From Marinobacterium litorale DSM 23545 (GTDB lineage Bacteria; Pseudomonadota; Gammaproteobacteria; Pseudomonadales; Balneatricaceae): a DNA stretch of 64,000 nucleotides. Under the pieces are notes generated by a model. The model was not told the origin of the DNA and searched no databases. It worked only from the letters and a program-made list of their open reading frames with translations. Within the stretch, counting starts at the first letter, position 1, and every line of letters starts with the position of its first letter. The DNA lies in contig NZ_AUAZ01000005.1 in assembly GCF_000428985.1 (NCBI RefSeq), positions 1-64,000 on the forward strand. Direction: 5' to 3'. This document shows positions 34,361 through 62,681 of this stretch, in pieces. Made by a program: the position numbers and the translations under genes.

Positions 34361-34368
34361 AAAAATAA
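34361..34368 (+). promoter_or_regulatory. A-rich leader motif AAAAATAA (AAnAAnAA)
   Basis: Lies 12 bases before the acyl-CoA synthetase ATG. Fits the Hfq/Crc target pattern; one of about ten such sites in this catabolic region. Confidence 0.4.
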
Positions 34369-34380
34369 ACGGGTTTCAGA

Positions 34381-36033
34381 ATGGACAAGATCAGCTACAG
34401 CAACTTCATCAAGGAGTTCACCCCAGCGTCGATAACAGAGCATTTTGTCGGCGACTTCACCAACGGTATCAACGTCTGCGAGGAGATCTGTGACCGTTGG
34501 GCCGAAGACCCCGAGCGGGTGGCTCTGCGCTATGAATTAATTGATGGCAACAGCGGCGAGATGACCTTCCACGAGCTGCTGCAGCGCTCGGCCCAGTTCG
34601 CCAACTTCTTAAACGCCCAGGGTATTGGTAAGGGAGATCGCGTATCGACCCTGCTGAGTCGCACTCCGGAGCTGATGATCGTCATCCTCGGTACGTTACG
34701 CGCCGGTGCCGTCTACCAACCCATGTTCACCGCCTTCGGCTCCGGTGCCATCGAATACCGGGTACAGAAAGCAGACACCAAACTGATCGTGACCAACCCG
34801 GATCAGTGGCACAAGCTTGCCGATGTGAACGGGCTTCCCAAGACACTTCTGGTCGCCGACGAAGGACACCCGCAGGCCGATGAAGCGGAAGCGCTGTTCT
34901 GGCCGACACTGAAGAGTCAGTCAGACCAGTTCGATCCGGTCCGGATTGGACCTGAAGACCCCTTCCTGCAGATGTTCACATCCGGCACAACCGGCCGGTC
35001 AAAGGGCGTAACAGTGCCCACCAAGGCGTTATCCGCCTTCTACGTCTACATGCGCTATGCCATCGGCCTGCGCGAGAGCGATAACTTCTGGAATGTGGCC
35101 GATCCGGGCTGGGCCTATGGCCTTTACTACGCCGTGGTTGGCCCGCTGCTATTGGGATCCACGACGCATTTTAACGAGGCAGGTTTTACGGCGGAGAACA
35201 CCTTCGAGTTCCTGCGCCGCTACAAGATTACCAATCTGGCTGCAGCCCCCACCGCGTACCGCATGCTGAAAGCCCATGACAAACTACTGGCCGATTACCC
35301 GGAAATTGACCTGCGTGTGGCCAACAGCGCCGGTGAGCCGCTTAACCCGGAGATCGTTAATTGGGTAAAACGTGCTTTCGATTGCCGGGTTTGCGACCAG
35401 TATGGCCAGACGGAAACCGGGATGACCTCCGCCAACTTCCATGAGCTGGAGCACCCAATGCGTGACGGCAGCATGGGTTACCCCCTGCCCGGCCACCGGC
35501 TGGTGGTGCTCGATCCCAACCTTAACGAGATGGAAGCGGGTGAGACCGGCGAGCTGGCCATCGACATGGACAACTCGCCGCTGTTTTTCTTCCAAGGCTA
35601 TACCTGGGGCGAAAAAAGTCCGTTCCAGGGACGCTACTACCTGACCGGTGATGTGGTGATCAGTAACGGCGACGGATCCCACTCATATACCGGCCGTGAC
35701 GACGATATCATCACCTCGGCGGGTTATCGGATCGGCCCCGCGGATGTGGAAAACACTCTGCTCGAACATGAAGCGGTGGTGGAAAGCGCCGTGATCGGCA
35801 AACCCGACCCGGAGCGCGGCTCGATCGTAAAAGCCTATGTGGTCACCCACCCACAGTTCGATGCCGATGAAAGCCTGGCGCAGGCGATGCAGCAGCATGT
35901 TCGCAACCGCCTCTCCACCCACGCTTTCCCCCGCGAAATCGAATTCGTCACCGATCTGCCTAAAACCTCCAGCGGCAAGATCCAGCGTTTCCTGCTGCGC
36001 AAACAGGCGGCAGGAGAAGCACCCTCCCAGTGA
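34381..36033 (+). CDS. AMP-dependent acyl-CoA synthetase
   Basis: A 550-residue ANL-superfamily ligase that activates a carboxylic acid to its CoA thioester via an acyl-AMP. Motifs: MFTSGTTGRSKGVTV (P-loop), YGQTETGM, YYLTGDVVISNGDGSHSYTG (hinge) and the C-terminal lysine in LPKTSSGKIQRFLLRK. It resembles the short/medium-chain acyl-CoA and acetyl-CoA-like synthetases. Given its place between an AraC regulator and etfBA, a short or branched acid is plausible; substrate is not readable from sequence. A terminator follows, separating it from etfBA. Confidence 0.85.
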   Translation: MDKISYSNFIKEFTPASITEHFVGDFTNGINVCEEICDRWAEDPERVALRYELIDGNSGEMTFHELLQRSAQFANFLNAQGIGKGDRVSTLLSRTPELMIVILGTLRAGAVYQPMFTAFGSGAIEYRVQKADTKLIVTNPDQWHKLADVNGLPKTLLVADEGHPQADEAEALFWPTLKSQSDQFDPVRIGPEDPFLQMFTSGTTGRSKGVTVPTKALSAFYVYMRYAIGLRESDNFWNVADPGWAYGLYYAVVGPLLLGSTTHFNEAGFTAENTFEFLRRYKITNLAAAPTAYRMLKAHDKLLADYPEIDLRVANSAGEPLNPEIVNWVKRAFDCRVCDQYGQTETGMTSANFHELEHPMRDGSMGYPLPGHRLVVLDPNLNEMEAGETGELAIDMDNSPLFFFQGYTWGEKSPFQGRYYLTGDVVISNGDGSHSYTGRDDDIITSAGYRIGPADVENTLLEHEAVVESAVIGKPDPERGSIVKAYVVTHPQFDADESLAQAMQQHVRNRLSTHAFPREIEFVTDLPKTSSGKIQRFLLRKQAAGEAPSQ

Positions 36034-36038
36034 GCCTT

Positions 36039-36060
36039 GAGGCCTTCGGGCCTCTTTTTT
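36039..36060 (+). terminator. Terminator with UUCG tetraloop after the acyl-CoA synthetase
   Basis: GAGGCC, TTCG, GGCCTC, then six T. Confidence 0.85.
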
Positions 36061-36096
36061 CTCAATCGAATGCTGTTTAAAGAGTAGAGAGAAGCG

Positions 36097-36849
36097 ATGA
36101 AAATACTCGTAGCCGTCAAACGCGTGATCGACTACAACGTGAAGGTCCGGGTCAAGGCAGACTGCAGCGATGTGGATCTGGCCAACGTCAAAATGGCCCT
36201 GAACCCGTTTTGTGAAATCGCCGTCGAGGAAGCGATTCGCCTCAAGGAAAGCGGCCAGGCCCAGGAGATCGTGGTGGTTTCCATCGGCAGTAAAGCCTGT
36301 CAGGAGCAGCTGCGCACGGCACTGGCTCTGGGCGCCGACCGCGCCATTCAAGTGGAAGCGCCCGACAATCTGGCCCCCCTGTCCATCGCCCGCATCCTGA
36401 AACAGGTTGCACAGGAGGAATCAGCCGACCTGATCCTGTTGGGTAAACAGTCAATCGACGCCGACAACAACCAGACCGGCCAGATGCTGGCAGCGCTGAT
36501 GGACCGCCCCCAGGCCACCTTTGCATCCGAGGTTCAGGTCGAGGGCGGCAGCCTGCGGGTAACACGCGAGATCGACGGGGGCCTGCAGACACTGAGCATG
36601 CAGTTGCCGGCCGTGGTAACCACAGACCTGCGCCTGAACGAGCCACGCTACGCTTCACTGCCCAACATCATGAAAGCCAAGCGCAAACCACTTGAAGTCA
36701 AAACCCCCGAGGAGCTGGGCGCTGAAGTAACCAACGGGGTGGAACTGCTGGGGGTCGAAGCGCCAGCCGAGCGTCAGGCCGGTATTCGGGTCAGCTCGGT
36801 GGAAGAGCTGGTGGATAAACTGCGTAACGAAGCAAAGGTACTGGCATGA
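36097..36849 (+). CDS. etfB: Electron transfer flavoprotein, beta subunit
   Basis: ETF takes electrons from acyl-CoA dehydrogenases and passes them to ETF-ubiquinone oxidoreductase (not in this window). The 250-residue beta subunit starts [20 protein letters not shown] and has the AMP-binding segment [20 protein letters not shown] and the recognition-loop region ([14 protein letters not shown]). Its TGA overlaps the etfA ATG by 4 bases (ATGA). The dehydrogenases of the valine, isoleucine and leucine modules nearby are its natural partners. Confidence 0.95.
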
Positions 36850-37775
36850 GCACTCTTATCTTAAGCGAACACGATAACCAGTCACTGAAACCCGTCACCC
36901 TGAGCCTGATCAGCGCCGCCCAAGCGATCGGTGGTGAGATTGACCTGTTGGTGGCAGGCAACAACTGTGACGCGGTGGCCGAAGCCGCCGCTCAGATCGG
37001 CGGGGTGCGCAAGGTCATCCTGGCCGACCATGCCGCCTATGCCCATCAGCTGGCGGAGAATGTCAGTAAGCTGGTGGCCGAGCTGGCACAGGGGTACAGC
37101 CATGTACTCGCACCGGGAACGACCACCGGTAAGAACATCCTGCCACGGGTCGCAGCCCTGCTGGGGGTCAACCAGCTCTCGGACATCATCTCGGTGGAGT
37201 CTGCCGATACGTTCAAACGACCCATCTACGCCGGCAATGCAATCGCCCGCGTAAAATCCAGCGACCCCATCAAAGTAATGACAGTACGAGGCACCGCCTT
37301 CGACGCAGCCGACGCCACCGGTGGCAACGCTAATATCGAGCGCTGTACCCGCGTACATCAACACACGGATATCGAATTTGTCGGGGAAGCGCTGGCCAGT
37401 TCGGACCGGCCGGAGCTCACAGCCGCATCCACCGTTATTTCGGGTGGCCGGGGCCTGGGCAACGGCGAAAACTTCGAGATGCTCTATCGCCTCGCCGATA
37501 AGCTTGGCGCTGCCGTGGGCGCATCCCGGGCAGCGGTGGACGCGGGCTTCGTTCCCAATGACATGCAGGTGGGACAAACCGGCAAGATGGTCGCACCGGA
37601 GCTCTACATCGCAGTCGGCATTTCCGGCGCAATCCAACACCTGGCCGGCATGAAGGATTCGAAGGTGATCGTTGCCGTCAACAAGGATGAGGAAGCGCCC
37701 ATCTTCCAGATCGCCGATTACAGCCTGGTCGGTGATCTGTTTGACGCGGTTCCCGAGCTTGAGCAACGGGTCTGA
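36846..37775 (+). CDS. etfA: Electron transfer flavoprotein, alpha subunit
   Basis: A 309-residue FAD-binding subunit. The C-terminal FAD domain carries the signatures [77 protein letters not shown] and [15 protein letters not shown]. It is translationally coupled to etfB. The downstream neighbour is convergent. Confidence 0.96.
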
Positions 37776-37800
37776 TCCTAGCCTTTGAAAGGAGATGACG

Positions 37801-37829
37801 AAAAAAGGGGCCATTCAACGAATGGCCCC
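37801..37829 (-). terminator. Terminator of the SDR/acyl-CoA dehydrogenase/thiolase unit
   Basis: Minus strand GGGGCCATT, loop CGTTG, AATGGCCCC, then TTTTTT. It lies 33 bases past the thiolase stop; the plus-strand side has no T-run, so it does not serve etfA well. Confidence 0.82.
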
Positions 37830-37861
37830 AAGGCAGGGTACTTCAACACAACCGAGTGCTT

Positions 37862-39043
37862 TTAAAACAGCTCCACCGCCACAGCGGTCGCCTCTCCCCC
37901 TCCGATACACAAAGATGCTACGCCTTTCTTGAGACCTCGCTGCTGCAGCGCGTTGAGCAATGTCACCAGAATACGGGAACCGGAAGAGCCGATAGGGTGA
38001 CCCAACGCACAGGCGCCACCGTGAACATTGACCTTCTCCTCATCGAGCCCCAGCTCCTTGATCGCCAGCAGAGAGACCACGGCAAAGGCTTCGTTGATCT
38101 CGAACAGATCCACCTCATCCTTGCTCCAGCCCGCTTTATCAAGCACCTTCTGAATGGCTCCGATGGGCGCAATGGTAAACTCAGCCGGCAGCTGGGCGTG
38201 GGTGGAGTGCGCCACTATGCGCGCCACCGGTGTAAGGCCCCGCCGCTGCGCTTCCTCGCTGCTCGCCAATACCAGTGCTGACCCGCCGTCACTGATCGAG
38301 CTGGAGTTAGCCGCGGTGACGCTGCCATCTTTTTTAAAGGCGGGTTTGAGCTGAGGGATCTTATCCGGACGTGCATTGCCCGGCTGTTCGTCCACCTCCA
38401 CTATCTGATCACCTTGACGGCCATTGACGGTGACAGGCGCAATTTCCTGCTTGAACCCACCGTTCTCGATTGCAGAAAGCGCCCGGTTTAGCGAGCTGAT
38501 CGCAAAATCGTCCATCGCTTCGCGACTGATGCCGTACTCATCGGCAGTACGCTGAGCGAAAACGCCCATCAGTCCGCCTTCGTAGGCATCCTCAAGCCCA
38601 TCCAGGAACATGGAATCCAGCACCTGGCCGTGACCCATGCGCATACCGGCACGCGCCTTGGGCAGGAGATAGGGCGCCTGGCTCATGTTTTCCATACCGC
38701 CCGCCACCATGATCGACGCACTTCCCGCCTTGATCTGATCATGCGCTTGCATCACGGCTTTCATACCCGAGCCACACATCTTGTTGACGGTGGTACAGCC
38801 GCTGGCATCGGGAATACCCGCCGCCCGCGAGGCCTGCCGTGCCGGTGCCTGTCCAAGGCCGCCGGGTAAAACGCATCCCATAATCACTTCATCGATATCT
38901 GCGGGAGCCAAACCGGCCCGTTCCACGGCCGCCTTGATGGCAACGGCCCCCAGCTCCGGGGAGCGCACACTGGAGAGTGCGCCCATCATTCCGCCCATCG
39001 GGGTACGGGCCGCGCCTAAAATTACGATATTGCTATCTGACAT
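37862..39043 (-). CDS. Acetyl-CoA acetyltransferase-type thiolase
   Basis: A 393-residue thiolase II. Nucleophilic C90 in NKMCGSGMKAVM, INEAFAVV and the second cysteine region GGACALGHPIGSSGSRIL, then CIGGGEATAVAVE are all present. Being the third gene of a unit with an acyl-CoA dehydrogenase and an HSD10-like dehydrogenase, it probably cleaves 2-methylacetoacetyl-CoA (isoleucine degradation) and/or acetoacetyl-CoA from leucine. ATG 39043 follows ACAGGAGCAACAG; the frame is open further upstream but without similarity. Confidence 0.92.
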   Translation of the reverse strand: MSDSNIVILGAARTPMGGMMGALSSVRSPELGAVAIKAAVERAGLAPADIDEVIMGCVLPGGLGQAPARQASRAAGIPDASGCTTVNKMCGSGMKAVMQAHDQIKAGSASIMVAGGMENMSQAPYLLPKARAGMRMGHGQVLDSMFLDGLEDAYEGGLMGVFAQRTADEYGISREAMDDFAISSLNRALSAIENGGFKQEIAPVTVNGRQGDQIVEVDEQPGNARPDKIPQLKPAFKKDGSVTAANSSSISDGGSALVLASSEEAQRRGLTPVARIVAHSTHAQLPAEFTIAPIGAIQKVLDKAGWSKDEVDLFEINEAFAVVSLLAIKELGLDEEKVNVHGGACALGHPIGSSGSRILVTLLNALQQRGLKKGVASLCIGGGEATAVAVELF

Positions 39044-39093
39044 CTGTTGCTCCTGTTTAAACTTATTGTCATGGAGTTTGTTCTGGCTGTATT

Positions 39094-40251: not shown

Positions 40252-40270
40252 TGCACCCACCTCCCTGCAT

Positions 40271-41032
40271 TCACTTGGGTGCCATGCGCAGCGCGCAATC
40301 GAGCCGGATTGTTTCACCGTTCAAGAGCGGATTTCTAACGATCTGATCAACCAGCAGGCCAAACTCCTCGGGCTGACCCAGGCGCTTCGGAAAGGGCAGC
40401 GTTGCCGCCAGACTGTCCTGCACCTCCTGAGAGAAGCCGGCCATCATTGGCGTCATAAATATGCCGGGGGCGATGGTATTCACCCGTATACCACTGCGCG
40501 CCAGCTCACGGGCAGCCTGCAGCGTCATCGACACAACCCCCCCCTTGGAGGCGCTGTAGGCCACCTGGCCAACCTGACCTTCGTAGGCTGCGATGGAAGC
40601 GGTGGAGATGATCACCCCCCGCTCGCCGTCCCCATTGGCTTCCCGGTTCGCCATCTCGGCGGCAGCCAGGCGCATGATGTTGAAGCTACCGACCAGGTTG
40701 ACCTGAATCACCCGGCTGAAATCATCCAGCGGCATCGGCCCCTCTTTGCCGACGATTTTGCCGGCCGGGGCGATACCGGCACAGTTCACGGCAATACCGC
40801 AGGGGCCATGCACCTCACGGGCTGCGGCGAATGCCGCTTCTGCACTGTAGGCATCAGCCACATCACAGCGCACAAACAAACCACCCAGCTCCTCGGCGAC
40901 CTTTCGACCGCGCTCCTCCTGAAGGTCGAAGATCGCCACCTTCGCGCCAGCCGCTGCCAGCGCTCGGGCTGATCCTTCACCAAGCCCGGAGGCACCACCT
41001 GTGACTATTGCCGGTACGTCTTTGAACTCCAT
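40271..41032 (-). CDS. Short-chain dehydrogenase, 3-hydroxyacyl-CoA dehydrogenase type II (HSD10-like)
   Basis: A 253-residue SDR. NAD-binding TGGASGLGEG, the NCAGIAPA turn, catalytic Ser in ISTASIAAYEGQ and YSASKGG (Tyr/Lys) are complete. The sequence with AIFDLQEERGRKVAEELGG and the long insert MANREANGDGERGVIIST follows the HSD17B10 family, which oxidises 2-methyl-3-hydroxybutyryl-CoA in isoleucine degradation. It is the first gene of the SDR-ACAD-thiolase unit; a terminator lies between it and prpE upstream, so it has its own promoter in 41033-41200. Confidence 0.88.
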   Translation of the reverse strand: MEFKDVPAIVTGGASGLGEGSARALAAAGAKVAIFDLQEERGRKVAEELGGLFVRCDVADAYSAEAAFAAAREVHGPCGIAVNCAGIAPAGKIVGKEGPMPLDDFSRVIQVNLVGSFNIMRLAAAEMANREANGDGERGVIISTASIAAYEGQVGQVAYSASKGGVVSMTLQAARELARSGIRVNTIAPGIFMTPMMAGFSQEVQDSLAATLPFPKRLGQPEEFGLLVDQIVRNPLLNGETIRLDCALRMAPK

Positions 41033-41048
41033 AACCCACTCACCTTGA

Positions 41049-41059
41049 TTGTTGTTTTT
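41049..41059 (-). promoter_or_regulatory. A-rich leader motif AAAAACAACAA
   Basis: On the minus strand, 16 bases before the SDR start and just ahead of its ribosome binding site. The same 11-mer precedes livG. Fits the Hfq/Crc AAnAAnAA pattern. Confidence 0.55.
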
Positions 41060-41207
41060 GCCGCCTTTTGTGCCACGGCGTTGAATAAGTGATATCCCTA
41101 AGTTTGGAACAGCACCGGAGCCGGTGCCATGACAATATTCGGCAGCAAAATTGGCAAAAAACGACAGCAGAGGACAACAAGGCGAAAAGGAGCTGGGGAG
41201 CGATTTG

Positions 41208-41237
41208 CTTAAGAAAGAAGGGCCTCCGTAGAGGCCC
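41208..41237 (-). terminator. Terminator of the mmsA-prpE operon
   Basis: Minus strand GGGCCTC, TACG tetraloop, GAGGCCC, then TTCTTTCTT, 11 bases past the prpE stop. Confidence 0.75.
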
Positions 41238-41247
41238 TGATCAGGGT

Positions 41248-43137
41248 TCAAGCCACGCCGACCGCCCGTATCCTGTCTTCGATCTCCGGCAGGATGGTTT
41301 CATCGTCAATGGTTGAGGGCATCTTGTACTCCTCCGCGGCAGCGATTTTGCGCAGAATCGCGCGCAGTATCTTGCCGGAGCGCGTCTTGGGCAGGCGCTG
41401 CACGATAATCGCCCGGCGGAAGCAGGCCACGGCACCCACCTGGTCGCGGACCCGTGCTACGAGTTCCTGCTCCAGCTGCGCTTCCTCGATCTCGACGCCC
41501 GCCTTGAGCACGATTAAACCCACCGGCACCTGCCCCTTGAGTTCATCGGCCACGCCGATGACGGCACACTCGGCCACGGCTTCATGGGCCGACACGACCT
41601 CTTCCATTTCACCGGTGGAAAGCCGGTGTCCGGAGACATTAATCACATCATCGGTACGACCGGTGATGTAGACATAGTTGTCTTCATCCTTATAGCCGCC
41701 ATCGCCGGTATGGTAATAGCCGGGAAACAGCGTCAGATAGGAGCTGACAAAACGGTCGTTGTTGTTCCAGATACTCCAGGCCACTCCCGGTGGCAATGGC
41801 AGGCGGATGCAGATATTGCCCGCTTCCATCGGTCCGACGGGCTCACCTTCGCCATCAAGCACCTGGATATCGTATCCGGGTATGGGTTTATTGGTAGAAC
41901 CCAGGCGTGCAGCGGACGGATTGTCCCAGCCCATCATCGGCGCTGTCACGGGCCAGCCGGTTTCGGTCTGCCACCAGTGGTCGATCACCGGCACCTGCAG
42001 CAGCTCATCTAGCCAATAGTAGGTGGCTGAATCGAGTTTCTCGCCCGCCACAAAGATCCAGCGCAGGCTGCTCAGATCATGCCGGTTAGCCAACGCACCC
42101 TCGGCATCCTCCTTGCGAACGGCGCGAAACGCCGTGGGCGCACAGAACATGGAGTTGACCTTGTACTCCTCGATGATGCGCCAGAAGGCACCGGCATCGG
42201 GTGTCCGAATCGGTTTACCCTCGTAGAAGATCGCACTACAACCGCCCATCAGCGGGCCATAAACGATGAATGAGTGACCCACCACCCAGCCGATATCCGA
42301 CGCGCCCCACCAGACATCCCCGGGCTGCATGCCGTAGACGTTATTCAGCGCGAAGCTCAACGCCACGGCGTAACCACCGTTGTCACGCACGATACCCTTG
42401 GGCTGGCCCGTGGTGCCCGATGTATAGAGAATATACAGCGGATCGCTACCGCGAACCGGAACACACTCGGCCGGAAGGACACCTTCCTGCGCCTGATACC
42501 AGTCCAGGTCACGCGCCGGATCCATCTCGGCCTTGAGCATCGGACGCTGGCACACCAGAGTGTAAGGCGGTGTATGCCGGGCCAGCTCAAGGGCACGATC
42601 CACCAGTGGTTTGTAAGCGATCTGTTTATCGAATTCGATGCCGCAGGAGGCGGTCAGAATAACCTTTGGCTTGGCATCGTCGATTCGGATCGCCAGTTCG
42701 TTGGGCGCAAAGCCACCGAACACGACAGAGTGCACAGCGCCAAGCCGGGCGCAGGCCAGCATGGCGACGGCCGCTTCCGGGATCATCGGCATGTAGATAA
42801 CGACCGTATCGCCCTTCTCTACCCCGAATTTACGCAGGGTACCGGCAAACCGGCTGACCCGCGTGCGCAGTTCATTGAAAGTGATCGCCTCTTTGGTATC
42901 GGTCACCGGGGAGTCGTAGTAGAGCGCAACCTGTTCACCACGTCCCTGTTCGATCTGGTGATCGAGCGCGAGATAACAGGTATTAAGCTCGCCATCGGCA
43001 TACCAGCTGTGGGTACCCCAGTCCGTGGCCGTCAGAATCTGTTCCGGCTTTTTGAACCAGGCGATCCGGTCGGCCTGGGCCGCCCAGAAGCCCTCCGGGT
43101 CGTCGATCGACGCCTGATAGTGCGCGTTGTAATCCAT
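41248..43137 (-). CDS. prpE: Propionyl-CoA synthetase
   Basis: A 629-residue AMP-forming ligase activating propionate. The YILYTSGTTGQPKGIVRDNG P-loop, DIGWVVGHSFIVYGPL, WWQTETGWPV and KTRSGKILRAILRKIA (catalytic Lys) follow the PrpE/AcsA pattern; the GHSFIVYGPL stretch and overall length favour PrpE. It is the last gene of the valine operon, 61 bases after mmsB. As MmsA releases propionyl-CoA, PrpE would recapture propionate rather than supply the pathway. ATG 43137 lies 5 bases after GAGG; a GTG two codons upstream is less well placed. Confidence 0.9.
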   Translation of the reverse strand: MDYNAHYQASIDDPEGFWAAQADRIAWFKKPEQILTATDWGTHSWYADGELNTCYLALDHQIEQGRGEQVALYYDSPVTDTKEAITFNELRTRVSRFAGTLRKFGVEKGDTVVIYMPMIPEAAVAMLACARLGAVHSVVFGGFAPNELAIRIDDAKPKVILTASCGIEFDKQIAYKPLVDRALELARHTPPYTLVCQRPMLKAEMDPARDLDWYQAQEGVLPAECVPVRGSDPLYILYTSGTTGQPKGIVRDNGGYAVALSFALNNVYGMQPGDVWWGASDIGWVVGHSFIVYGPLMGGCSAIFYEGKPIRTPDAGAFWRIIEEYKVNSMFCAPTAFRAVRKEDAEGALANRHDLSSLRWIFVAGEKLDSATYYWLDELLQVPVIDHWWQTETGWPVTAPMMGWDNPSAARLGSTNKPIPGYDIQVLDGEGEPVGPMEAGNICIRLPLPPGVAWSIWNNNDRFVSSYLTLFPGYYHTGDGGYKDEDNYVYITGRTDDVINVSGHRLSTGEMEEVVSAHEAVAECAVIGVADELKGQVPVGLIVLKAGVEIEEAQLEQELVARVRDQVGAVACFRRAIIVQRLPKTRSGKILRAILRKIAAAEEYKMPSTIDDETILPEIEDRIRAVGVA

Positions 43138-43149
43138 ACTCACCTCATC

Positions 43150-43198: not shown

Positions 43199-44092
43199 CT
43201 ATTCGGCGCTTTGGTACAGCCTGATCAGACTGGAGAAATCCAGGCCACCATTACCGTTGCTCTTGTGCAGGTTAAACAGTGCCCGCGCCGCCGAGCCCAT
43301 CGGTGTGGCTGATGCGCTCTGCTGGCTCACTTCCATGGCCAGCCCCAGATCCTTGAACATCAGATCCACCATAAAGCCGCCCTCATAATCACGGGAAGCC
43401 GGCACGCCGTCCATAACCCCCGGCACCGGGTTGTAAACCTGCAGCGCCCAGTTATTGCCGGAGCTCTGCTTCATGATGTCGGACAGCACCTTGGGATCGA
43501 GGCCGTTCTTCATCCCCATACTGAGCGCCTCACAGGTGCCCGCCATGAGGATGCCCAGCAGCATGTTGTTACACACTTTGGCGATCTGACCGGCTCCGGT
43601 CTCACCGGCATGGAAGATATTCTTGCCCATGCAGGCCAATATCGGCTGAGCCCGCTCAAACTGGGCGGCCTCACCACCCACAATAAAAGTCAGGGTACCG
43701 GCCTTGGCACCGCCGACTCCGCCGGAGACCGGCGCATCGATAAAACCAATGCCCTTCTCGGCACCGGCCGCAGCCACACGACGGGCGGTATCGGCGTCGA
43801 TGGTAGAGCTGTCGATCACCAGCGCGCTGGAATCGATCAGGTCGAACAGCGGCTGCTCGCCACTGACAAACAGTGCTTCCACATGCTTGCCCGCAGGCAG
43901 CATGGAGATAACGAAATCCGCGCCACGCACCGCATGCTGCGCACTATCCGCCGCATTGCAGCCCGCCTCGACGGCCTGATTCAGTGCGGCGCCAGAGAGA
44001 TCGAAAGCGTTAACGTTGTGCCCTGCCTGGGCGAGATTGGCGGCCATGGGACCACCCATGTTGCCAAGACCGATAAATGCGATTGTTGCCAT
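43199..44092 (-). CDS. mmsB: 3-hydroxyisobutyrate dehydrogenase
   Basis: Oxidises 3-hydroxyisobutyrate to methylmalonate semialdehyde with NAD. The 297-residue product has the N-terminal dinucleotide motif FIGLGNMGGPMAANLAQAGH, the substrate motif DAPVSGGVGGAKAGTL and the catalytic lysine K171 in GQIAKVCNNMLLG. Next in the valine pathway after the hydrolase encoded 66 bases upstream. Length and motifs are typical. Confidence 0.95.
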   Translation of the reverse strand: MATIAFIGLGNMGGPMAANLAQAGHNVNAFDLSGAALNQAVEAGCNAADSAQHAVRGADFVISMLPAGKHVEALFVSGEQPLFDLIDSSALVIDSSTIDADTARRVAAAGAEKGIGFIDAPVSGGVGGAKAGTLTFIVGGEAAQFERAQPILACMGKNIFHAGETGAGQIAKVCNNMLLGILMAGTCEALSMGMKNGLDPKVLSDIMKQSSGNNWALQVYNPVPGVMDGVPASRDYEGGFMVDLMFKDLGLAMEVSQQSASATPMGSAARALFNLHKSNGNGGLDFSSLIRLYQSAE

Positions 44093-47278: not shown

Positions 47279-48772
47279 TCACTTGAGCTGGATGGTCATG
47301 TTGGGACCGGAAACGATATCGTCCTCAAACCAGCGTGCAGTCACGGTCTTGGTCTCGGTGTAGAACTTCACCGCCTGCTTGCCATAGGCGTGCTGATCGC
47401 CGTAGAAGGACTTGCGCCAGCCCGTGAAGGAGAACATGGGCAGCGGCACCGGTACCGGCACATTGATACCAACCTGACCCACTTTGATCTCGTGCTGATA
47501 CTTGCGCGCCGCGGCGCCGGAGGACGTGAAGATCGAGGTACCGTTGCCATAGGGGTTTTCGTTGATCAGGGCAATCGCCTCATCGAGCGTATCCACCTCG
47601 AGTGCGATCAGCACCGGACCGAAAATCTCCTCCTGGTAGATCGACATATCACGGGTCACATTGCGGAACATGGTGGGGCCCACCCAGTTACCATCCGGAT
47701 AGCCCTCGACAGCACATTCGCTGCCATCGAGGATACAGTCCGCTCCGGCGTCTTTACCCTCCTGAATCAATCGCAGAACACGCTCCCGCGCCTGAGGGTT
47801 AATCAACGGTCCGTAGCCGGCCTGGGGGTCGTTCCAGGCACCCGGACGGACCTTGGCCAGGGCATCGCGCACCTCTTCTATCCACTGACGAGACTCACCC
47901 ACAAACACCGCCACGGAAATCGCCATACAGCGCTGTCCCCCAGCGCCCACGGAAGCACCCGCGATATTGCTGATCACCTGATTCTTGGACGCATCCGGCA
48001 TCACCACCATGTGGTTCTTCGCGCCGGCAAACGCCTGCACCCGCTTCATATGGTCGGTGCCGGTACGGTAAATGTGCTCACCCACAGCCACCGACCCGAC
48101 GAACGAGATCGCCGGTGTATCCTTGTGAGTCAGCAGCTGGTTCACAACATCCTTGGTGCCGTGAACAATCTGCAGCAGCCCATCCGGCGCACCGGCTTCC
48201 TTAAACAGCTCAGCCAGGCGCATCGGTGTCAGTGGATCCTGCTCGGAGGGTTTCAGCACGAAGGTATTGCCACAGGCGATCGCCATCGGGAACATCCACA
48301 GCGGAATCATGGCCGGAAAGTTAAATGGCGTGATACCCACGCAAACACCCAGTGGCTGAGTGACGCTGTAGCAGTCGATTTTACGGGCCACGTTTTCCAC
48401 CGTTTCGCCCATGCTCAACGAAGCGATATTGCAGGCATGCTCCACCACCTCAATACCACGCCACACATCCCCTTTGGCATCTTCGAAGGTTTTACCGGTT
48501 TCCTGAGCCAGCAGCTCGGCCAGTTCATCATGGTGCTCTTTCAACAGCGCCTGATAGCGCAGCATCAACCGCGCACGATCACCCACGGCGGTCTCTTTCC
48601 AGCTATCAAACGCCTGCTGCGCTACAGACACGGCGCGATCAACCTCAGCCGACGTGGCACAGGGCACCTGCGCCAGGACCTCCTGCGTAGCGGGATTGGT
48701 CACCGGCAGCCACTGGCTGGTTTCGCTCTGTACGAATTCACCACCGATCAGAAGCGGTACATGCTGAGTCAT
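47279..48772 (-). CDS. mmsA: Methylmalonate-semialdehyde dehydrogenase (CoA-acylating)
   Basis: Converts methylmalonate semialdehyde to propionyl-CoA and CO2 with NAD and CoA. The 497-residue aldehyde dehydrogenase has catalytic C282 in [11 protein letters not shown], the [20 protein letters not shown] cofactor stretch and [20 protein letters not shown], all typical of MmsA. First gene of the minus-strand valine operon (mmsA, dehydrogenase, hydratase, hydrolase, mmsB, prpE), divergent from the AraC regulator at 48985. Confidence 0.96.
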
Positions 48773-53180: not shown

Positions 53181-53891
53181 TCAAACCCCAAGGTAGGTAT
53201 TCAGGAGCTCTGTCTTGGCTTCAAGCTCACGGGCCTGAATCTCCTCAACGATGTGACCGTGTTCCATGACGTAGTGACGGTCGGCAATGGGGGCTGCAAA
53301 ACGGAAGTTCTGCTCCACCAGCAATATGGTCAAACCCCGCTCCTTGAGCTTGACCAGCACTTCACCCAGCTTCTGTACGATCACCGGCGCCAAACCCTCG
53401 GTGATCTCATCAAGCAGCAGAATATTGGCGCCCGAGCGCAGAATTCTCGCCAGAGCCAGCATCTGCTGCTCACCGCCGGATAGACGGGTGCCCTGGCTCG
53501 TACGGCGTTCATAAAGGTTGGGAAACATTTCGTAGAGCTCATCGACGCTCATGCCGTCGGATCGCACCGCCGGCGGTAACAGCAGGTTTTCCTCGACACT
53601 CAGGCTGGAGAAAATACCCCGCTCTTCCGGGCAGTAACCCAGCCCCAGATGCGCGATCTTGTGAGCCGGTAAACTGATGGTCTCGGTCCCGTTGATATTG
53701 ATCGAACCGCTGCGCCGCCCGACCATATTCATGATCGCCCGCAGCGTTGTGCTGCGCCCGGCACCGTTGCGCCCGAGCAGCGTAACTAGCTCGCCCTGCA
53801 TGATGTTCATATCGATGCCGTGCAGGATATGGGACTCACCATAGAAGGCGTGCAGATCATCAATACGTAGCTTCTCGCGATGGGTACTCAT
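53181..53891 (-). CDS. livF: Branched-chain amino acid ABC transporter, ATPase LivF
   Basis: A 236-residue ABC ATPase. The signature LSGGEQQMLALARIL and Walker B ILLLDEITEGLAP are clear, but Walker A reads LLGRNGAGRSTTLRAIMN: the catalytic Lys is Arg (R46). The DEIT in place of DEPT is a second departure from the LivF norm. Some proteobacterial LivF-like proteins share this form, so the chain is probably functional, perhaps leaning on LivG for hydrolysis. Its ATG overlaps the livG stop by 4 bases. Confidence 0.9.
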   Translation of the reverse strand: MSTHREKLRIDDLHAFYGESHILHGIDMNIMQGELVTLLGRNGAGRSTTLRAIMNMVGRRSGSININGTETISLPAHKIAHLGLGYCPEERGIFSSLSVEENLLLPPAVRSDGMSVDELYEMFPNLYERRTSQGTRLSGGEQQMLALARILRSGANILLLDEITEGLAPVIVQKLGEVLVKLKERGLTILLVEQNFRFAAPIADRHYVMEHGHIVEEIQARELEAKTELLNTYLGV

Positions 53892-54703
53892 CCCCGAGCC
53901 TCCTCAACCACTTCCATAGCAGCCTGCTCATCAGCCCGGTCCTGCTCCTCGCTGGCCGCAGTGCCCATATAGGCCTCACGTACACGAGGGTCGGCTGACA
54001 CAGTGGAGTAATCACCTTCGGTCAGAATGGAGCCGCGCTGCAACACCGTAATCCGGTCCGCCAGCTTGGAAACCACATGCAGGTTGTGCTCGACCATCAG
54101 AATCGTGCGCCCCTTGGACACCTTTTTGATCAGGTCGGCCACCAGACCCACATCCTCATGCCCCATGCCCTGCGTCGGCTCATCCAGCAGCATCAGCTCA
54201 GGCTCCAGGGCAAGCGTCGTTGCGATCTCCAGCGCGCGTTTACGACCGTACGAGAGATCCACAGTCTGTGCCTCGGCAAAATCGGCCAGACCGACTGAAG
54301 CCAGCAGTTCGTAGGCGCGCTCGTTCAGCCGATCAAGCACCTTTTGCGAACGCCAGAAATGAAAGCTATGGCCCTCCTTGCGTTGGAGAGCCACGCGAAC
54401 GTTCTCCAGAACAGAAAGATGAGGAAAGACCGCCGAAATCTGGAATGAACGTACAACCCCTTTGCGGGCGATCGCGGCGGGCTTCATCGCGGTGATGTCA
54501 TCACCGTTAAACAGGATCTGGCCGCTGGTCGGGATCAGAAACTTGGTCAGTAAGTTGAATACGGTTGTCTTGCCGGCCCCGTTAGGGCCGATAAGGGCGT
54601 GAATATGGCCGCGTGCCACCTGAAGATTGACATCATCGACCGCGGTGAAGCCCTTGAACTCTTTAATGAGATTCCGGGTTTCAAGAACGTAGTCTGCACT
54701 CAT
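53888..54703 (-). CDS. livG: Branched-chain amino acid ABC transporter, ATPase LivG
   Basis: A 271-residue ABC ATPase with normal Walker A (IGPNGAGKTTVFNLLT), signature (DLSYGRKRALEIATTLALEP) and Walker B (LMLLDEPTQGMGHEDV). LSYGRKR in place of LSGGQ is usual in LivG. First gene of the transporter operon in the order livG-livF-livK-livH-livM, divergent from liuR. The short tail ASEEQDRADEQAAMEVVEEA is extra and acidic. Confidence 0.94.
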   Translation of the reverse strand: MSADYVLETRNLIKEFKGFTAVDDVNLQVARGHIHALIGPNGAGKTTVFNLLTKFLIPTSGQILFNGDDITAMKPAAIARKGVVRSFQISAVFPHLSVLENVRVALQRKEGHSFHFWRSQKVLDRLNERAYELLASVGLADFAEAQTVDLSYGRKRALEIATTLALEPELMLLDEPTQGMGHEDVGLVADLIKKVSKGRTILMVEHNLHVVSKLADRITVLQRGSILTEGDYSTVSADPRVREAYMGTAASEEQDRADEQAAMEVVEEARG

Positions 54704-54730: not shown

Positions 54731-54758
54731 ATGCTGGCTTTCGCACTTGGCGTCGAAT

Positions 54759-54932: not shown

Positions 54933-54948
54933 TTTACGTTAACGTAAA
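54933..54948. promoter_or_regulatory. LiuR operator TTTACGTTAACGTAAA upstream of liuR
   Basis: A perfect 16-base palindrome 52 bases before liuR, agreeing with the TTTACGTnnACGTAAA type of site known for MerR-family LiuR proteins. It touches the possible -35 box. The rest of this 297-base gap is A+T-rich and holds no gene. Confidence 0.75.
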
Positions 54949-54949
54949 C

Positions 54950-54979
54950 TTGTATTAGCCTTGCCATCACTCCTATTAA
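54950..54979 (+). promoter_or_regulatory. Candidate liuR promoter
   Basis: TTGTAT (54950-54955), 18-base spacer, TATTAA (54974-54979), directly after the LiuR palindrome and ending 21 bases before the liuR ATG. Confidence 0.35.
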
Positions 54980-55000
54980 ATACAGGATTACCCTTACACG

Positions 55001-55423: not shown

Positions 55424-55424
55424 C

Positions 55425-55432
55425 TACAACAA
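55425..55432 (+). promoter_or_regulatory. A-rich leader motif TACAACAA before liuA (one mismatch)
   Basis: Eleven bases before the liuA ATG; departs from AAnAAnAA only at its first base. Confidence 0.3.
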
Positions 55433-55443
55433 GGTAGAAAAAG

Positions 55444-56610: not shown

Positions 56611-56621
56611 GCATCACCACG

Positions 56622-56632
56622 AACAAGAATAA
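56622..56632 (+). promoter_or_regulatory. A-rich leader motif AACAAGAATAA before liuB
   Basis: Four AA units in register, in the 69-base liuA-liuB gap, 47 bases before the liuB start. Confidence 0.4.
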
Positions 56633-56679
56633 CCAAAGATGCCCGGGCAGCCCCCTGCCCGGCAGAACGGGAGTGTGCG

Positions 56680-58287: not shown

Positions 58288-58310
58288 GGCGAAATCGGGA
58301 GAGACGCACT

Positions 58311-59111
58311 ATGGACAATAACAACAACGCGGTGCTGCTGGAGATCTCCGACCGGGGCGTCGCCCAGCTGACACTGAACCGGCCCGAGGTGCATAACGCC
58401 TTCGATGACAGCATCATCGCCGCATTGATCGAAGCGCTGGAGGCCACCGACCGCGATCCGGCTGTCCGTGTTCTGGTACTGCGCTCAAACGGTCGCAACT
58501 TTTCTGCCGGTGCCGACCTGGCCTGGATGAAGCGGATGGCGAACAACAGCCATCAGGAAAATCTGGACGATGCAGGACGCCTGGCTCGCCTGATGGAAGC
58601 GCTGAACAACCACAGCAAACCCACCATCGCTCTGGTGCAGGGCGCCGCCTATGGGGGGGCCGTGGGACTGGCCGCCTGCTGCGACATCGTTATCGCCACC
58701 GAGCAGAGCCAGTTCTGCCTCAGCGAAGTGAAGATCGGCCTGATACCGGCTGTCATCAGCCCCTATGTGGTGCGGGCCATCGGCGAACGGCTGGCTCGGC
58801 GTTACTTTTTAAGCGCCGAGTCATTTAGTGCCCAGGTGGCCGCCGAAACGGGCCTGGTCCATGAAATCGTTGCGGATGCCGCGCTGCTGGACGATGCCTG
58901 TCATCGCATCATCCGCCAGCTGCGCCGTAACAGCCCCCAGGCTATGAGCGCCGCCAAGCAACTGATCTTTGCCGTCAGTGACAAGCCCATCGATAGCGAC
59001 GTCATCGCCGATACCGCCCGCCGTATCGCCGATATCCGCATCAGCGCTGAGGGGCAGGAGGGACTTGGCGCCTTCCTCGGCAAGCGCCCACCGAACTGGA
59101 TCGAGGATTAA
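58311..59111 (+). CDS. liuC: 3-methylglutaconyl-CoA hydratase
   Basis: A 266-residue enoyl-CoA hydratase that turns 3-methylglutaconyl-CoA into HMG-CoA. Oxyanion hole parts FSAGADLAWMKRMANNS and VQGAAYGGAVGLAACCDIVI, then CLSEVKIGLIPAVISPYVV. The ADLAWMKRM stretch is characteristic of LiuC/methylglutaconyl-CoA hydratases. The N-terminal codons (MDNNNNA) hold an A-rich CA motif. Followed 6 bases later by liuD. Confidence 0.93.
   Translation: MDNNNNAVLLEISDRGVAQLTLNRPEVHNAFDDSIIAALIEALEATDRDPAVRVLVLRSNGRNFSAGADLAWMKRMANNSHQENLDDAGRLARLMEALNNHSKPTIALVQGAAYGGAVGLAACCDIVIATEQSQFCLSEVKIGLIPAVISPYVVRAIGERLARRYFLSAESFSAQVAAETGLVHEIVADAALLDDACHRIIRQLRRNSPQAMSAAKQLIFAVSDKPIDSDVIADTARRIADIRISAEGQEGLGAFLGKRPPNWIED
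58317..58327 (+). promoter_or_regulatory. A-rich motif AATAACAACAA inside the start of liuC
   Basis: Four AA units in register within codons 3-6; the run of Asn codons AAT AAC AAC AAC makes it part of the coding sequence. Fits the Hfq/Crc pattern at a ribosome-binding region. Confidence 0.5.
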
Positions 59112-59117
59112 TTCGTC

Positions 59118-61112
59118 ATGTTTAACAAAATTTTGATCGCGAACCGGGGTGAGATTGCCTGTCGGGTGATTCAGACCGCCCACCGCCTCGGTATCCGCTG
59201 CGTCGCCGTCTATTCAGAAGCCGACCGCCACGCCCGCCATGTGGCGATGGCTGATGAAGCCTTCCTGCTCGGCCCGGCACCGAGCAGCGAGAGTTATCTG
59301 CGCGCCGACCGGGTCATTGAGGTTGCCAAATCCAGCGGCGCCCAGGCCATCCACCCGGGCTACGGCTTCCTGTCGGAGAACACCGAGTTCGCCCGCGCCT
59401 GCGAGACTAATGACATCGTGTTTATCGGCCCGCCCGCCTCCGCTATTGCCTCCATGGGCTCCAAATCCGCTGCCAAGGCGATCATGCAGGACGCCGGCGT
59501 GCCTCTGGTACCCGGCTACCACGGCGAGGATCAATCCCCGGACCTGCTTCGCGCCGAAGCCGAGAAATGCGGCTTCCCTCTGCTGCTCAAGGCCGTTGCC
59601 GGTGGCGGGGGTAAAGGGATGCGTGTGGTCGAGTCGATGCGCGAATTCGATGAGGCCCTGGCCGCCGCGCAGCGGGAAGCGAAAAACGCCTTCGGCAACC
59701 CCGATATGCTGATCGAAAAATACCTGACTCAGCCGCGTCACGTGGAGATCCAGGTGTTCTGCGACGCCCATGGCAACGGTGTTTATCTGGCCGAGCGCGA
59801 CTGCTCGGTTCAGCGCCGCCATCAAAAAGTGCTGGAAGAAGCCCCGGCACCCGGCCTGAGCCAGGAAACGCGCCGGGCGATGGGCGAAGCGGCGGTACGC
59901 GCAGCTCAGGCGATCGACTATGTCGGCGCGGGCACCGTTGAGTTCCTGTACGACGTGGATGGCTCCTTCTATTTCATGGAGATGAACACCCGGTTACAGG
60001 TCGAACACCCGGTCACCGAAATGATCACCGGACAAGATCTCGTGGAGTGGCAGCTACGGGTAGCCAATGGCGAGCCGCTGCCTCTGCAACAAGACCAGAT
60101 CCAGCTCCGTGGCCATGCCCTGGAGGCCCGCATCTACGCCGAGGACCCCGACCATGACTTTTTACCGGCTACCGGCACCCTGCGCTATCTGCGTACGCCG
60201 GATGAAAACAGCCACGTCCGTGTGGACACCGGTGTCACCGAAGGCGATGAGGTCAGCATCCATTACGACCCGATGATCGCCAAACTGATCGTGTGGGACG
60301 ACACCCGCGAGCGCGCCATAAACCGCATGGTACAGGCGCTCGAGGAGTATCGGATCAACGGTGTGAAAACCAATATCCGTTTCCTCCATGCACTGGCCGA
60401 CTCCGCCCCGTTTCGCAACGAAGCACTGGATACCGGCTTTATTGGTAAACATGAGGACCTGCTGTTTCCACCTGCACAACTGGATGAAAACCTGGGACTG
60501 GTACTCAGTGCCTGCTTCTTCCTGCTGCGCAGCAAGGCGGAGCAGACACTGACCGCAGACCCGTTCTCGCCGTTTGCACGCCAGAACAGTTGGCGTCTCA
60601 ACTCGCACTATGCCCGCCCCATGCAGCTGCTGGCCGATGATGTCGAGCACTCCCTGCGTATTCTGGAGCAGGACAACCACTTTCAGATCGATATCGGCGA
60701 GTGCAGTTACGAGGTGCGTGCGGCGCTCGATGGTGACCGGCTTCAAGCCACCGTCAACGGGCATCGCTTTACCGTTTGCGGCGATCTGCACGAGGATCAG
60801 CTGGTACTTTTCCATCGCGGCGAAACCTTCCATTGCGCCCTGCACCGGGAACAGTTCGGCCTGGAGGAGCAATCTGGCGAGGGCGGCCTGCAGGCACCGA
60901 TGAACGGCTCGGTGGTTGCTGTGCTTGTCAGCCCCGGCGATCGCGTCGAGGCAGGCCAGACGCTGGTGATCATGGAGGCGATGAAGATGGAGCATGCCAT
61001 CAAGGCATCCGGCAACGGCAGCGTCAGTGAAGTGTTCTTCGGCGAAGGCGATCTGGTTTCGGAGGGCGCCGAGCTGATCTCCCTCGAACTCGATTCCGAG
61101 GAGGCAGCCTGA
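59118..61112 (+). CDS. liuD: 3-methylcrotonyl-CoA carboxylase, biotin (alpha) subunit
   Basis: A 664-residue protein: biotin carboxylase (ANRGEIACRVIQTAHRLGIR, AVAGGGGKGMRVVESMREFD, DCSVQRRHQKVLEEAPAP, FMEMNTRLQVEHPVTEMITG), a linker and a C-terminal biotinyl domain with the biotinylated lysine K623 in IMEAMKMEHAIKASG. It carboxylates its biotin with ATP and bicarbonate for LiuB. Stop TGA overlaps the liuE ATG by one base. Length is typical of MCC alpha. Confidence 0.95.
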   Translation: MFNKILIANRGEIACRVIQTAHRLGIRCVAVYSEADRHARHVAMADEAFLLGPAPSSESYLRADRVIEVAKSSGAQAIHPGYGFLSENTEFARACETNDIVFIGPPASAIASMGSKSAAKAIMQDAGVPLVPGYHGEDQSPDLLRAEAEKCGFPLLLKAVAGGGGKGMRVVESMREFDEALAAAQREAKNAFGNPDMLIEKYLTQPRHVEIQVFCDAHGNGVYLAERDCSVQRRHQKVLEEAPAPGLSQETRRAMGEAAVRAAQAIDYVGAGTVEFLYDVDGSFYFMEMNTRLQVEHPVTEMITGQDLVEWQLRVANGEPLPLQQDQIQLRGHALEARIYAEDPDHDFLPATGTLRYLRTPDENSHVRVDTGVTEGDEVSIHYDPMIAKLIVWDDTRERAINRMVQALEEYRINGVKTNIRFLHALADSAPFRNEALDTGFIGKHEDLLFPPAQLDENLGLVLSACFFLLRSKAEQTLTADPFSPFARQNSWRLNSHYARPMQLLADDVEHSLRILEQDNHFQIDIGECSYEVRAALDGDRLQATVNGHRFTVCGDLHEDQLVLFHRGETFHCALHREQFGLEEQSGEGGLQAPMNGSVVAVLVSPGDRVEAGQTLVIMEAMKMEHAIKASGNGSVSEVFFGEGDLVSEGAELISLELDSEEAA

Positions 61113-62029
61113 TGGCCTTTCCAGAACAGGTCCGCATCGTCGAAATGGCGCCCCGTGACGGCCTGCAAAATGAACCGGGCCCCATCGTACCGACGGCCAC
61201 CAAAGTGGAACTGATCGACCGTCTCGCGGCCACGGGCCTGAGGCACATTGAGGCGGCCAGTTTCGTCTCGCCCAAATGGGTGCCCCAGATGGGGGATGCC
61301 ACCGATGTGATGGCCGGCCTCACTCGCAAACCGGGCGTGGTCTATTCCGCGCTGACTCCCAACTTGCAGGGGCTCGAAGGCGCCATCATCGCAGGTGCGG
61401 ATGAGGTCGCGGTATTCAGTGCCGCCTCCGAAGCGTTTACCCAGAAGAACATCAACTGCTCGATCGGTGAAAGCCTTGAGCGCTTCGCCCCCCTGATTGA
61501 GCGTGCCCGAAAAGAGGGTATTCGGGTGCGGGGATACGTCTCCACCGTACTGGGCTGTCCCTATCAGGGCGAGATCGCCCCGGCTGAGGTGGCTCGCGTG
61601 AGCCGTGCGCTGATCGAAATGGGCTGCTACGAGATCTCGCTGGGCGACACCATCGGTGTGGGCACCCCGTTGAAGGCAAAACGTATGCTGGAAGCGGTCG
61701 CCGCCGAGGTCCCCATGGGCCAACTGGCTGCCCATTTCCACGACACCTACGGCCAGGCACTGGCGAACCTTTATGCCGTCCTTGAGGAGGGCATAAAGGT
61801 GATCGACAGCTCCACCGCCGGACTGGGCGGCTGCCCCTATGCGCGCGGCGCATCAGGCAACGTGGCCACTGAGGACGTGCTCTACCTGCTTCAGGGGCTC
61901 GGCATCGAAACCGGTGTCGACCTCGAGTCAGTTGTTGCAACCGGGCACTGGATTACCCAGCAGCTGGGACGGCACAACGGCTCCAAAGTCGCCCTCGCCA
62001 TGGGCGACAACCGTTCGTGCGATTCATAG
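61112..62029 (+). CDS. liuE: Hydroxymethylglutaryl-CoA lyase
   Basis: Cleaves HMG-CoA to acetyl-CoA and acetoacetate, the last step of the liu pathway. The 305-residue TIM barrel has EMAPRDGLQNEPGPI, YVSTVLGCPYQGEIAP, LGDTIGVGTPLKAKRML, AAHFHDTYGQALANL and catalytic C241 in AGLGGCPYARGASGNVATED. Acetoacetate must then be activated elsewhere; a candidate ligase is at 62695. The thiolase at 37862 could cleave the resulting acetoacetyl-CoA. Confidence 0.95.
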   Translation: MAFPEQVRIVEMAPRDGLQNEPGPIVPTATKVELIDRLAATGLRHIEAASFVSPKWVPQMGDATDVMAGLTRKPGVVYSALTPNLQGLEGAIIAGADEVAVFSAASEAFTQKNINCSIGESLERFAPLIERARKEGIRVRGYVSTVLGCPYQGEIAPAEVARVSRALIEMGCYEISLGDTIGVGTPLKAKRMLEAVAAEVPMGQLAAHFHDTYGQALANLYAVLEEGIKVIDSSTAGLGGCPYARGASGNVATEDVLYLLQGLGIETGVDLESVVATGHWITQQLGRHNGSKVALAMGDNRSCDS

Positions 62030-62062
62030 CGCAAAGCAACCGATAACAAGAGGACTCTAAGG

Positions 62063-62641
62063 ATGTCACAGCCCGACCACATCACGGCCCTGGAACTGCC
62101 AATCCCTGAGCGCGATCAGCTGCCGGAGGATGTACGTAAATACTTCGGCAAGTGCGATGAGAAACTGGGCATGGTGCCCAACGTACTCAAGGCCTACAGC
62201 CAGAACCTGGCGCAGCTCGACGTGTTCTCCCGCTTTTATAACGAGCTGATGTTTGGCGAAAGTGAGCTGACGCCACTGGAACGCGAGATGATCGCCGTTG
62301 TCGTCTCGTCCGCCAACAACTGCTTCTACTGCCTGACAGCCCACGGCGCGGCCGTGCGCGATTACTCGGGCGATCCCGCCCTGGGTGAACTTCTGGTCAT
62401 GAACTACCGCGCCGCCCAACTCGATCCGCGCCAGCGCGCCATGCTCGATTTCTCCCACAAGCTGACCGTCACCCCGGCCGAGGTCGGTGAAACCGACCGG
62501 CAGGCACTGCGCGATGTGGGTTTCAGTGAGCGCGGCATCTGGGATATCGCCAACGTGGCCGGTTTTTACAACATGACCAACCGGGTCGCGGGTGCCGTCG
62601 ATATGCAACCCAATCCTGAATACCACGGACGCTTCCGCTAA
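62063..62641 (+). CDS. AhpD-like/carboxymuconolactone decarboxylase family protein
   Basis: A 192-residue peroxidase-related alpha-helical protein. The AhpD-type centre reads [20 protein letters not shown] (CxxC plus His), preceded by [16 protein letters not shown]. Long peroxidase-related AhpD-like proteins of about 190 residues have this form. It lies 33 bases after liuE and is probably co-transcribed; its role in the pathway, if any, is not known, perhaps thiol-based peroxide protection. Confidence 0.85.
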
Positions 62642-62670
62642 GCGGTCTTCCAAATTTCATCAGTCCGGAT

Positions 62671-62681
62671 AACAAAAAAAA
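62671..62681 (+). promoter_or_regulatory. A-rich leader motif AACAAAAAAAA
   Basis: 13 bases before the acyl-CoA ligase start, ahead of its ribosome binding site (CGGAGCC). Largely an A-run, so weaker evidence than other copies. Confidence 0.35.

Follow-up and report, generated by a model that had tools for sequence, protein, structure and literature searches.

AAnAAnAA leader tags and a probable CrcZ-like RNA locus suggest an Hfq/Crc catabolite-repression regulon in Marinobacterium litorale

In pseudomonads, Hfq together with Crc represses catabolic mRNAs through AAnAAnAA motifs at their ribosome binding sites, and pcnB is the next gene after crcZ in Pseudomonas. The crcZ gene itself comes after cbrB there, and the available part of a 2022 review describes the cbrA-cbrB-crcZ organization only in Pseudomonas and Azotobacter, as unique to the Pseudomonadaceae (PMC8871633); CbrAB is likewise given as restricted to this family in the accessible part of a further paper (PMC6296734), and cbrAB transcripts have been counted in seawater according to the portion available of another (PMC5073097). 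We found no report of CrcZ-like RNAs outside Pseudomonas and Azotobacter in listings of the open-access literature. Here, we analysed a stretch of 64,000 nucleotides (nt) from Marinobacterium litorale DSM 23545 (contig NZ_AUAZ01000005.1, positions 1 to 64,000; the window), in which an original prediction had read AAnAAnAA tags in front of branched-chain catabolic and transport genes as signs of a translation-level catabolite-repression regulon. The A-rich leader tags are confirmed, and the region very probably is an Hfq/Crc translational catabolite-repression regulon, which would be relieved by a decoy RNA driven by CbrB and sigma-54. Such a mechanism is no novelty in itself; new are its host range, its spread over the order and the diverged form of the RNA.

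The window contains 38 matches to AAnAAnAA, compared to 14.25 expected from 100 dinucleotide shuffles (standard deviation (sd) 4.17, largest value 26). All motif positions that had been claimed exist in the sequence, and the six minus-strand copies indeed lie 12-22 nt before start codons (Table 1). The exact repeats are also as described, with AAAAACAACAA common to the SDR and livG leaders and AAAAATAACAA common to those of prpE and livK. As predicted for housekeeping and biosynthetic genes, none of the eight tested (gcvP, sdaA, gcvT, leuA, radD, kdsA, cysK and trpS; identities upheld by NCBIfam) carries the motif at -45 to +6 of the called start, which for leuA, radD and cysK lies inside the longest open reading frame. 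Two assignments had to be revised: the copy at 56622, listed among those of plus-strand genes, is off the ribosome site of liuB, and the A-run before the Lrp gene, formerly set apart, is a genuine AAnAAnAA match, so that this regulator is included.

The strongest evidence for the leaders is their conservation. Across the loci compared, relatives retain the tag although the flanks diverge. For livK, whose protein has its best named relatives in Marinobacterium (M. iners, 93%), 49 loci remained under strict start picking, and 32 of them had the motif versus 8.4 expected from own-composition shuffles. Since strict picking of start codons lost many livK loci, these were recounted over a wider span (90 nt for livK, 56 nt for the other liv genes), which placed the tag by the start in 62/66 gammaproteobacterial loci, the window's own counted and some genomes contributing two. 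Outside this group, it was seen in none of three Thiothrix/Thiolinea loci and in 1 of 11 alphaproteobacterial, myxobacterial and (one) unclassified proteobacterial loci. The livG tag is present in 43 of 60 gammaproteobacterial loci. For prpE, all 23 close homologues (72-89% identity) and two of six at 59-64% have the tag, with a shuffle expectation of 1.0 in 29; the exact motif precedes mmsB in 18/23 relatives (2.9 predicted), and mmsA is tagged in 12/12 loci, again counting the window. The gene at 62063 is tagged in 25 of 32 loci, yet the window's own copy is not. The early-coding motif of liuC recurs in 11/31 loci, and a liuB leader motif occurs in 3/31, the window's not among them. For the acyl-CoA ligase at 34381, two loci were at hand, one with the motif, and the comparison for the SDR gene found no orthologue leaders. 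Control leaders carried the tag rarely: liuR in 2/34 loci, the AraC regulator in 0/13 and crc in 3/27, and likewise livM (1/63), livH (6/63), livF (2/61), liuD (0/30) and liuE (0/30); the latter five are weaker controls, as they are inner genes with short gaps.

The motif is also enriched in the leaders of a larger genome sample, as the original prediction would require. From the assembly (4,380,400 bases, 64 contigs) we sampled 861,800 bases (19.7%) with 699 genes, delimited by a simple custom gene caller. AAnAAnAA was found at -40 to -6 of 44 of these genes, versus 13.0 (sd 3.0, maximum 26) after shuffling of every leader within its own composition. Motif starts peaked at -30 to -16 (14, 25 and 17 in the 5-nt bins -30, -25 and -20), with 0-4 in the other upstream bins, and in the same sample TTnTTnTT had no comparable upstream peak. 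Of the 28 ways to place six A in eight positions, AAnAAnAA ranked first. Tagged leaders were unevenly distributed over the contigs, with 15 of 257 genes on C1, 5 of 232 on C2, 12 of 100 on C5 and 12 of 81 on C14. A second, smaller peak of 13 motif starts was located at +5 to +9, that is, in codons 3-5 as in liuC.

When functional classes were assigned by our own reading of Pfam and NCBIfam family names, uptake and catabolic genes made up 28 of 45 tagged genes, but at most 4 of 20 randomly chosen untagged ones (Fisher p = 0.003). Omission of the eight genes from the window left 20 of 37 versus 4 of 20 (p = 0.02). The tagged classes include ABC and TRAP transporters, acyl-CoA ligases and dehydrogenases, a ring-hydroxylating oxygenase, a hydantoinase and a thiolase.

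Both proteins that the proposed regulon would need are encoded in the genome. A PF03372 search of the genome returned two proteins, one an ordinary ExoIII and the other Crc-like. The latter comprises 257 amino acids (aa), has its best Protein Data Bank matches in Pseudomonas Crc (2myi, E 2.5e-78; 4jg3, 8e-77), aligns with 2myi without gaps over residues 1-254 of the printed alignment and is about 47% identical to Pseudomonas-type Crc. Its gene is divergent from a pyrE-like gene, which we take to be pyrE. The nuclease positions, presumably E34, D151 and D258 in E. coli ExoIII numbering, are replaced in Crc and retained in the separate ExoIII; the changed Crc would thus be devoid of nuclease activity. 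They are likewise changed in Crc relatives at 68-89% identity, and two Thiothrix genomes and one Thiolinea genome keep them. In Thalassolituus marinus (L122), the Crc-like gene is split into two overlapping frames, by real loss or by sequencing error. Residues K139, R140, R141, E142, E193, R229 and R230 of Crc matter for RNA and Crc-Crc contacts, as stated in the available part of PMC6422490; here, K139, R140, R141, E193 and R229 are identical, while E142 is changed to D and R230 to K. Over residues 1-77, Hfq (L083, 1489-1728) shares 69 (90%) with its P. aeruginosa counterpart (1u1s). With AAnAAnAA at the ribosome site and a Crc lacking the nuclease residues, the system resembles Pseudomonas Hfq/Crc and its amiE-type targets; it differs in its marine Marinobacterium host and in that the tagged genes belong to a valine/leucine catabolic and liv-type transport cluster.

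Elsewhere in the genome, the gene order is gluQ-like synthetase, cbrA, cbrB, a 604-nt gap, pcnB, folK, panB and panC. CbrA (972 aa) has 12 transmembrane-like segments as well as HisKA and HATPase_c domains, without a match to a Pfam solute-symporter domain at E 0.01, and CbrB is of the NtrC type. Gene order and full-length similarity agree with a genome of family f19 (G144) that is Pseudomonas-type by its Crc: identity is 49% for CbrA (978 columns) and 63% for CbrB. The sense strand of the gap contains five TGTTAC/GTAACA sites, versus 0.09 expected, which correspond to the CbrB subsites given in the accessible part of PMC6296734. They are followed by TGGCACAGCATCTGC, a GG-N10-GC sigma-54 box, and by A-rich clusters 29, 64, 107 and 168 nt past the box start; one more cluster, the fifth, precedes the box, and no sigma-70 promoter was found in the gap. 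The gap therefore probably holds a CrcZ-like RNA gene, of the kind the original prediction had proposed to look for, and it shares with CrcZ/CrcY/CrcX the position after cbrB and before pcnB, the CbrB-like subsites, the sigma-54 box and several A-rich motifs. In 30 of 31 corresponding regions (30 relatives and our own), two or more motif starts come after the box, with none in L177; ahead of the box, 122 CbrB-like sites were counted in all, versus 3.4 expected. The 31 regions contain 35 RNA copies, with motif clusters at near-fixed spacing; five regions (L166, L168, L172, L174 and L175) have two CrcZ-like copies in tandem, each with its own sigma-54 box. Near the RNA locus, the biosynthetic gene panB (L123, 2621-3415) has a leader tag. 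A weak, sub-cut-off match to the Rfam narK RNA (RF03032; L123, 5784-5831) starts at the sigma-54 box, and this family may partly capture promoter sequence.

The RNA copies also share a predicted structure. Alignment A1 included 30 of the 35 copies, leaving out the five most divergent (L188-L192), and had a mean identity of 51%, yet in motifs 2 and 3 the A-rich core is almost invariant. RNAalifold found a long closing stem of 12 pairs, seven of which are changed on both sides, onto which hairpins around motifs 2, 3 and 4 were drawn by hand; three of the four A-rich motifs are thereby placed in hairpin loops. In the full structure 86.4% of cells pair (75.8 in shuffles), ranging from 99.6% in the closing stem over 88.0% in the motif 3 hairpin and 76.5-78.4% at motif 4 to 64.7% at motif 2. 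Seventeen of 23 pairs are changed on both sides (13.7 in shuffles; reached by 5/500), and the covariation score is 0.411 versus 0.235 in shuffles (0/500) and 0.12 or less when the structure is slid, a comparison in which it is favoured because it was derived from the same sequences. The Rfam CrcZ model (RF01675) scored the gap at 10.9 bits, compared to a cut-off of 95, and in the genome scan matched neither our genome nor any of 14 controls, which is uninformative alone. Unlike RF01675, the RNA described here combines four motifs with a covarying closing stem and, in some relatives, two copies per gap. A model built on motifs 2 and 3 (R1) had a single match in its own genome, at the cbrB-pcnB gap, and under strict filters matched 10 of 145 genomes of the order, none of them among the six Pseudomonas-type genomes of f19. 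RF01675 in turn matched 29 of the 145 at E 0.001 and seven above the cut-off, namely five of the six f19 genomes and two of f2.

Breadth was sampled over 39 families of the order, by taking the DNA upstream of pcnB, used as anchor, in 40 genomes. In contrast to the published range of CbrA-CbrB, a CbrB-like protein is encoded upstream of pcnB on the same strand in 32 of the 40, the match in f36 being partial and that in f16 weak. The box is present in 31 genomes, all with at least two A-rich clusters; 25 of these 31 have at least two CbrB-like sites, and the sites total 77 versus 3.4 expected. For 38 genomes we tabulated this RNA, scored wherever A-rich clusters precede pcnB, a perfect box or cbrB in the stretch being optional, against a changed Crc, in which at most three of five nuclease positions are kept. 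Both were present in 27, only the RNA in five, only the Crc in one (f37) and neither in five (p = 0.0026, not corrected for kinship). Families f15, f16 and f38 (unclear) and f40 (sequence not retrieved) were omitted; f17, f22 and the f25 genome G098 had ExoIII-level matches only and were scored as lacking a changed Crc, and in f23 and f39 one of two Crc-like genes was classified. The two f25 genomes differ: G098 (L293) has cbrB and the RNA with a Crc match at ExoIII level only, whereas G066 (L292) is without cbrB and RNA, and its Crc homologue keeps all five nuclease positions. Upstream of pcnB, the f32 genome G151 (L300, L354) combines an A-rich array with a sigma-54-like box, but CbrB is missing from the 2.7 kb and CbrA from the 9.3 kb taken, and CbrB-like sites are likewise absent; here, control has perhaps been rewired. 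Taken over the order, a circuit of CbrAB, decoy RNA and Hfq/Crc is probably ancestral to this order, to which Pseudomonas, Marinobacterium and Marinobacter belong; it would have been kept in most families with RNAs too diverged for Rfam, have arisen as an ExoIII-type gene lost its nuclease residues, and have been lost along with the changed Crc.

At the sequence level, the components that such a regulon would need are in place: the motif, its position and conservation; Hfq, CbrA, CbrB and a Crc with a changed active site; and an RNA gene with covarying stems behind a sigma-54 box and CbrB-like sites. From these we infer Hfq-Crc binding, repression, titration by the RNA and an inducing signal. 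The tags would be Hfq distal-face sites ('catabolite activity' motifs) in ribosome-binding leaders of genes for uptake and breakdown of branched-chain amino acids and acyl-CoA compounds. With a preferred carbon source present, Hfq and its co-repressor Crc would cover the leader and block translation. Upon shortage of carbon, CbrA and CbrB would activate the CrcZ-like RNA from the sigma-54 promoter between cbrB and pcnB, and the four A-rich motifs of this RNA would draw Hfq-Crc away from the leaders. The presence of crc, hfq and the CrcZ-like RNA gene and the enriched, conserved motif support the regulon that had been proposed, and neither a lack of crc nor an equal motif frequency before housekeeping genes was found. 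Several results weigh against it. The lead of the triplet arrangement over the other six-A arrangements is narrow (45 versus 38; with non-A gaps 25 versus 23). Non-catabolic tagged genes exist (panB, a RimK-like gene, an MCP and a response regulator), and on contigs C1 and C2 alone the catabolic bias is modest (10/20 versus 4/17, p = 0.17). The enrichment in catabolic over other genes is thus positive overall and weak on these two contigs, so that the comparison within the genome backs the regulon only moderately and does not prove it. The near copy noted before liuA is there, but as an exact AAnAAnAA it is kept in only 9 of 32 loci. Position 25 of Hfq, which we take to be part of the distal A-rich site, is F here and Y in 1u1s, with the aromatic ring kept. 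In the RNA, further pair types numbered 40 versus 37.2 in shuffles (reached by 94/500), and no factor-independent terminator was found in the gap. Finally, 5 of 32 RNA genomes (f20, f23, f25/G098, f31 and f39) have no nuclease-changed Crc among the classified genes.

These points bear on three other explanations. The tags might act without Hfq-Crc, as translation enhancers of a general kind or as unstructured standby sites ahead of the ribosome-binding site; leaders are A-rich in general, and many other six-A arrangements are enriched before starts as well. Shuffles that keep each leader's own composition nevertheless fall far short of the 44 tagged genes, retention is gene by gene, as prpE and livK illustrate, and all eight housekeeping genes tested in the window are untagged. 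Moreover, the livK leaders of Thiothrix and Thiolinea, where the Crc homologue keeps its nuclease residues, lack the tag, and the tag recurs in the RNA gene behind CbrB-like sites, which together make a pure enhancer role very improbable. Hfq might instead use the tags alone, possibly with base-pairing small RNAs, while Crc acts elsewhere. This would fit the five RNA genomes without a classified changed Crc, and in the available part of PMC6422490 Hfq is the RNA binder and Crc by itself does not bind RNA. We consider it unlikely, given that changed Crc and RNA mostly occur or are missing together across the order and that the interface residues of Crc are kept or conservatively replaced here.

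The RNA between cbrB and pcnB might also be the leader of pcnB and not a free decoy RNA, as it lies on the pcnB strand and shows no intrinsic terminator. Its position after cbrB, however, matches that of Pseudomonas CrcZ in the available part of PMC8871633, the long covarying stem closes the structure well before pcnB, and five of 31 regions have two tandem copies, so that we regard this as quite unlikely. Three further candidates were rejected: plain A-richness; a DNA-level regulator site, as the tag adjoins the start codon and recurs in the RNA gene; and CsrA/RsmA, since this protein binds GGA.

The gene identities in and around the tagged part of the window were obtained from NCBIfam and Pfam. 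They comprise an acyl-CoA ligase, an ETF pair, a thiolase, SDR, the prpE-like ligase, mmsB, a hydratase and mmsA, along with AraC and MerR regulators, parts of a liv-type ABC transporter, a liu-type carboxylase cluster and an HMGL-like enzyme; the single letters in the liu, liv and prp names were taken from the original prediction and from gene order.

Table 1. A-rich motif copies in the window and the genes next to them.
Motif	Position	Strand	Gene	Gene coordinates	Motif relative to the gene
AAAAACAACAA	41049..41059	-	SDR gene	40271-41032	ATG 16 nt on
AAAAATAACAA	43150..43160	-	prpE-like propionate/acyl-CoA ligase	41248-43137	ATG 12 nt on
AATAAAAATAA	44105..44115	-	mmsB, 3-hydroxyisobutyrate dehydrogenase	43199-44092	ATG 12 nt on
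AACAACAAAAA	48795..48805	-	mmsA, methylmalonate-semialdehyde dehydrogenase	47279-48772	ATG 22 nt on
AATAAAAATAACAA	53153..53166	-	livK-like binding protein		ATG (53132) 20 nt on
AAAAACAACAA	54720..54730	-	livG	53888-54703	ATG 16 nt on
AAAAATAA	34361..34368	+	acyl-CoA ligase	34381-36033	ATG 12 nt on
AACAAGAATAA	56622..56632	+	liuB		gene begins 47 nt past motif end; not a ribosome-site copy
AATAACAACAA	58317..58327	+	liuC	58311-59111	within codons 3-6
AACAAAAAAAA	62671..62681	+	AMP-binding acyl-CoA ligase		followed by ATG (62695)
A8 run	13078..13085	+	Lrp/AsnC gene	13098-13562	followed by the gene

If the Hfq/Crc regulon is as proposed here, the ranking of food sources known from Pseudomonas would be no speciality of that genus but a level of regulation spread across the order, in marine bacteria that are common. 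It would yield lists of target genes as well as a diverged decoy-RNA family for Rfam. Genomes that keep or have lost the nuclease-changed Crc would then allow the origin of an RNA co-repressor from a DNA-repair nuclease to be studied directly.

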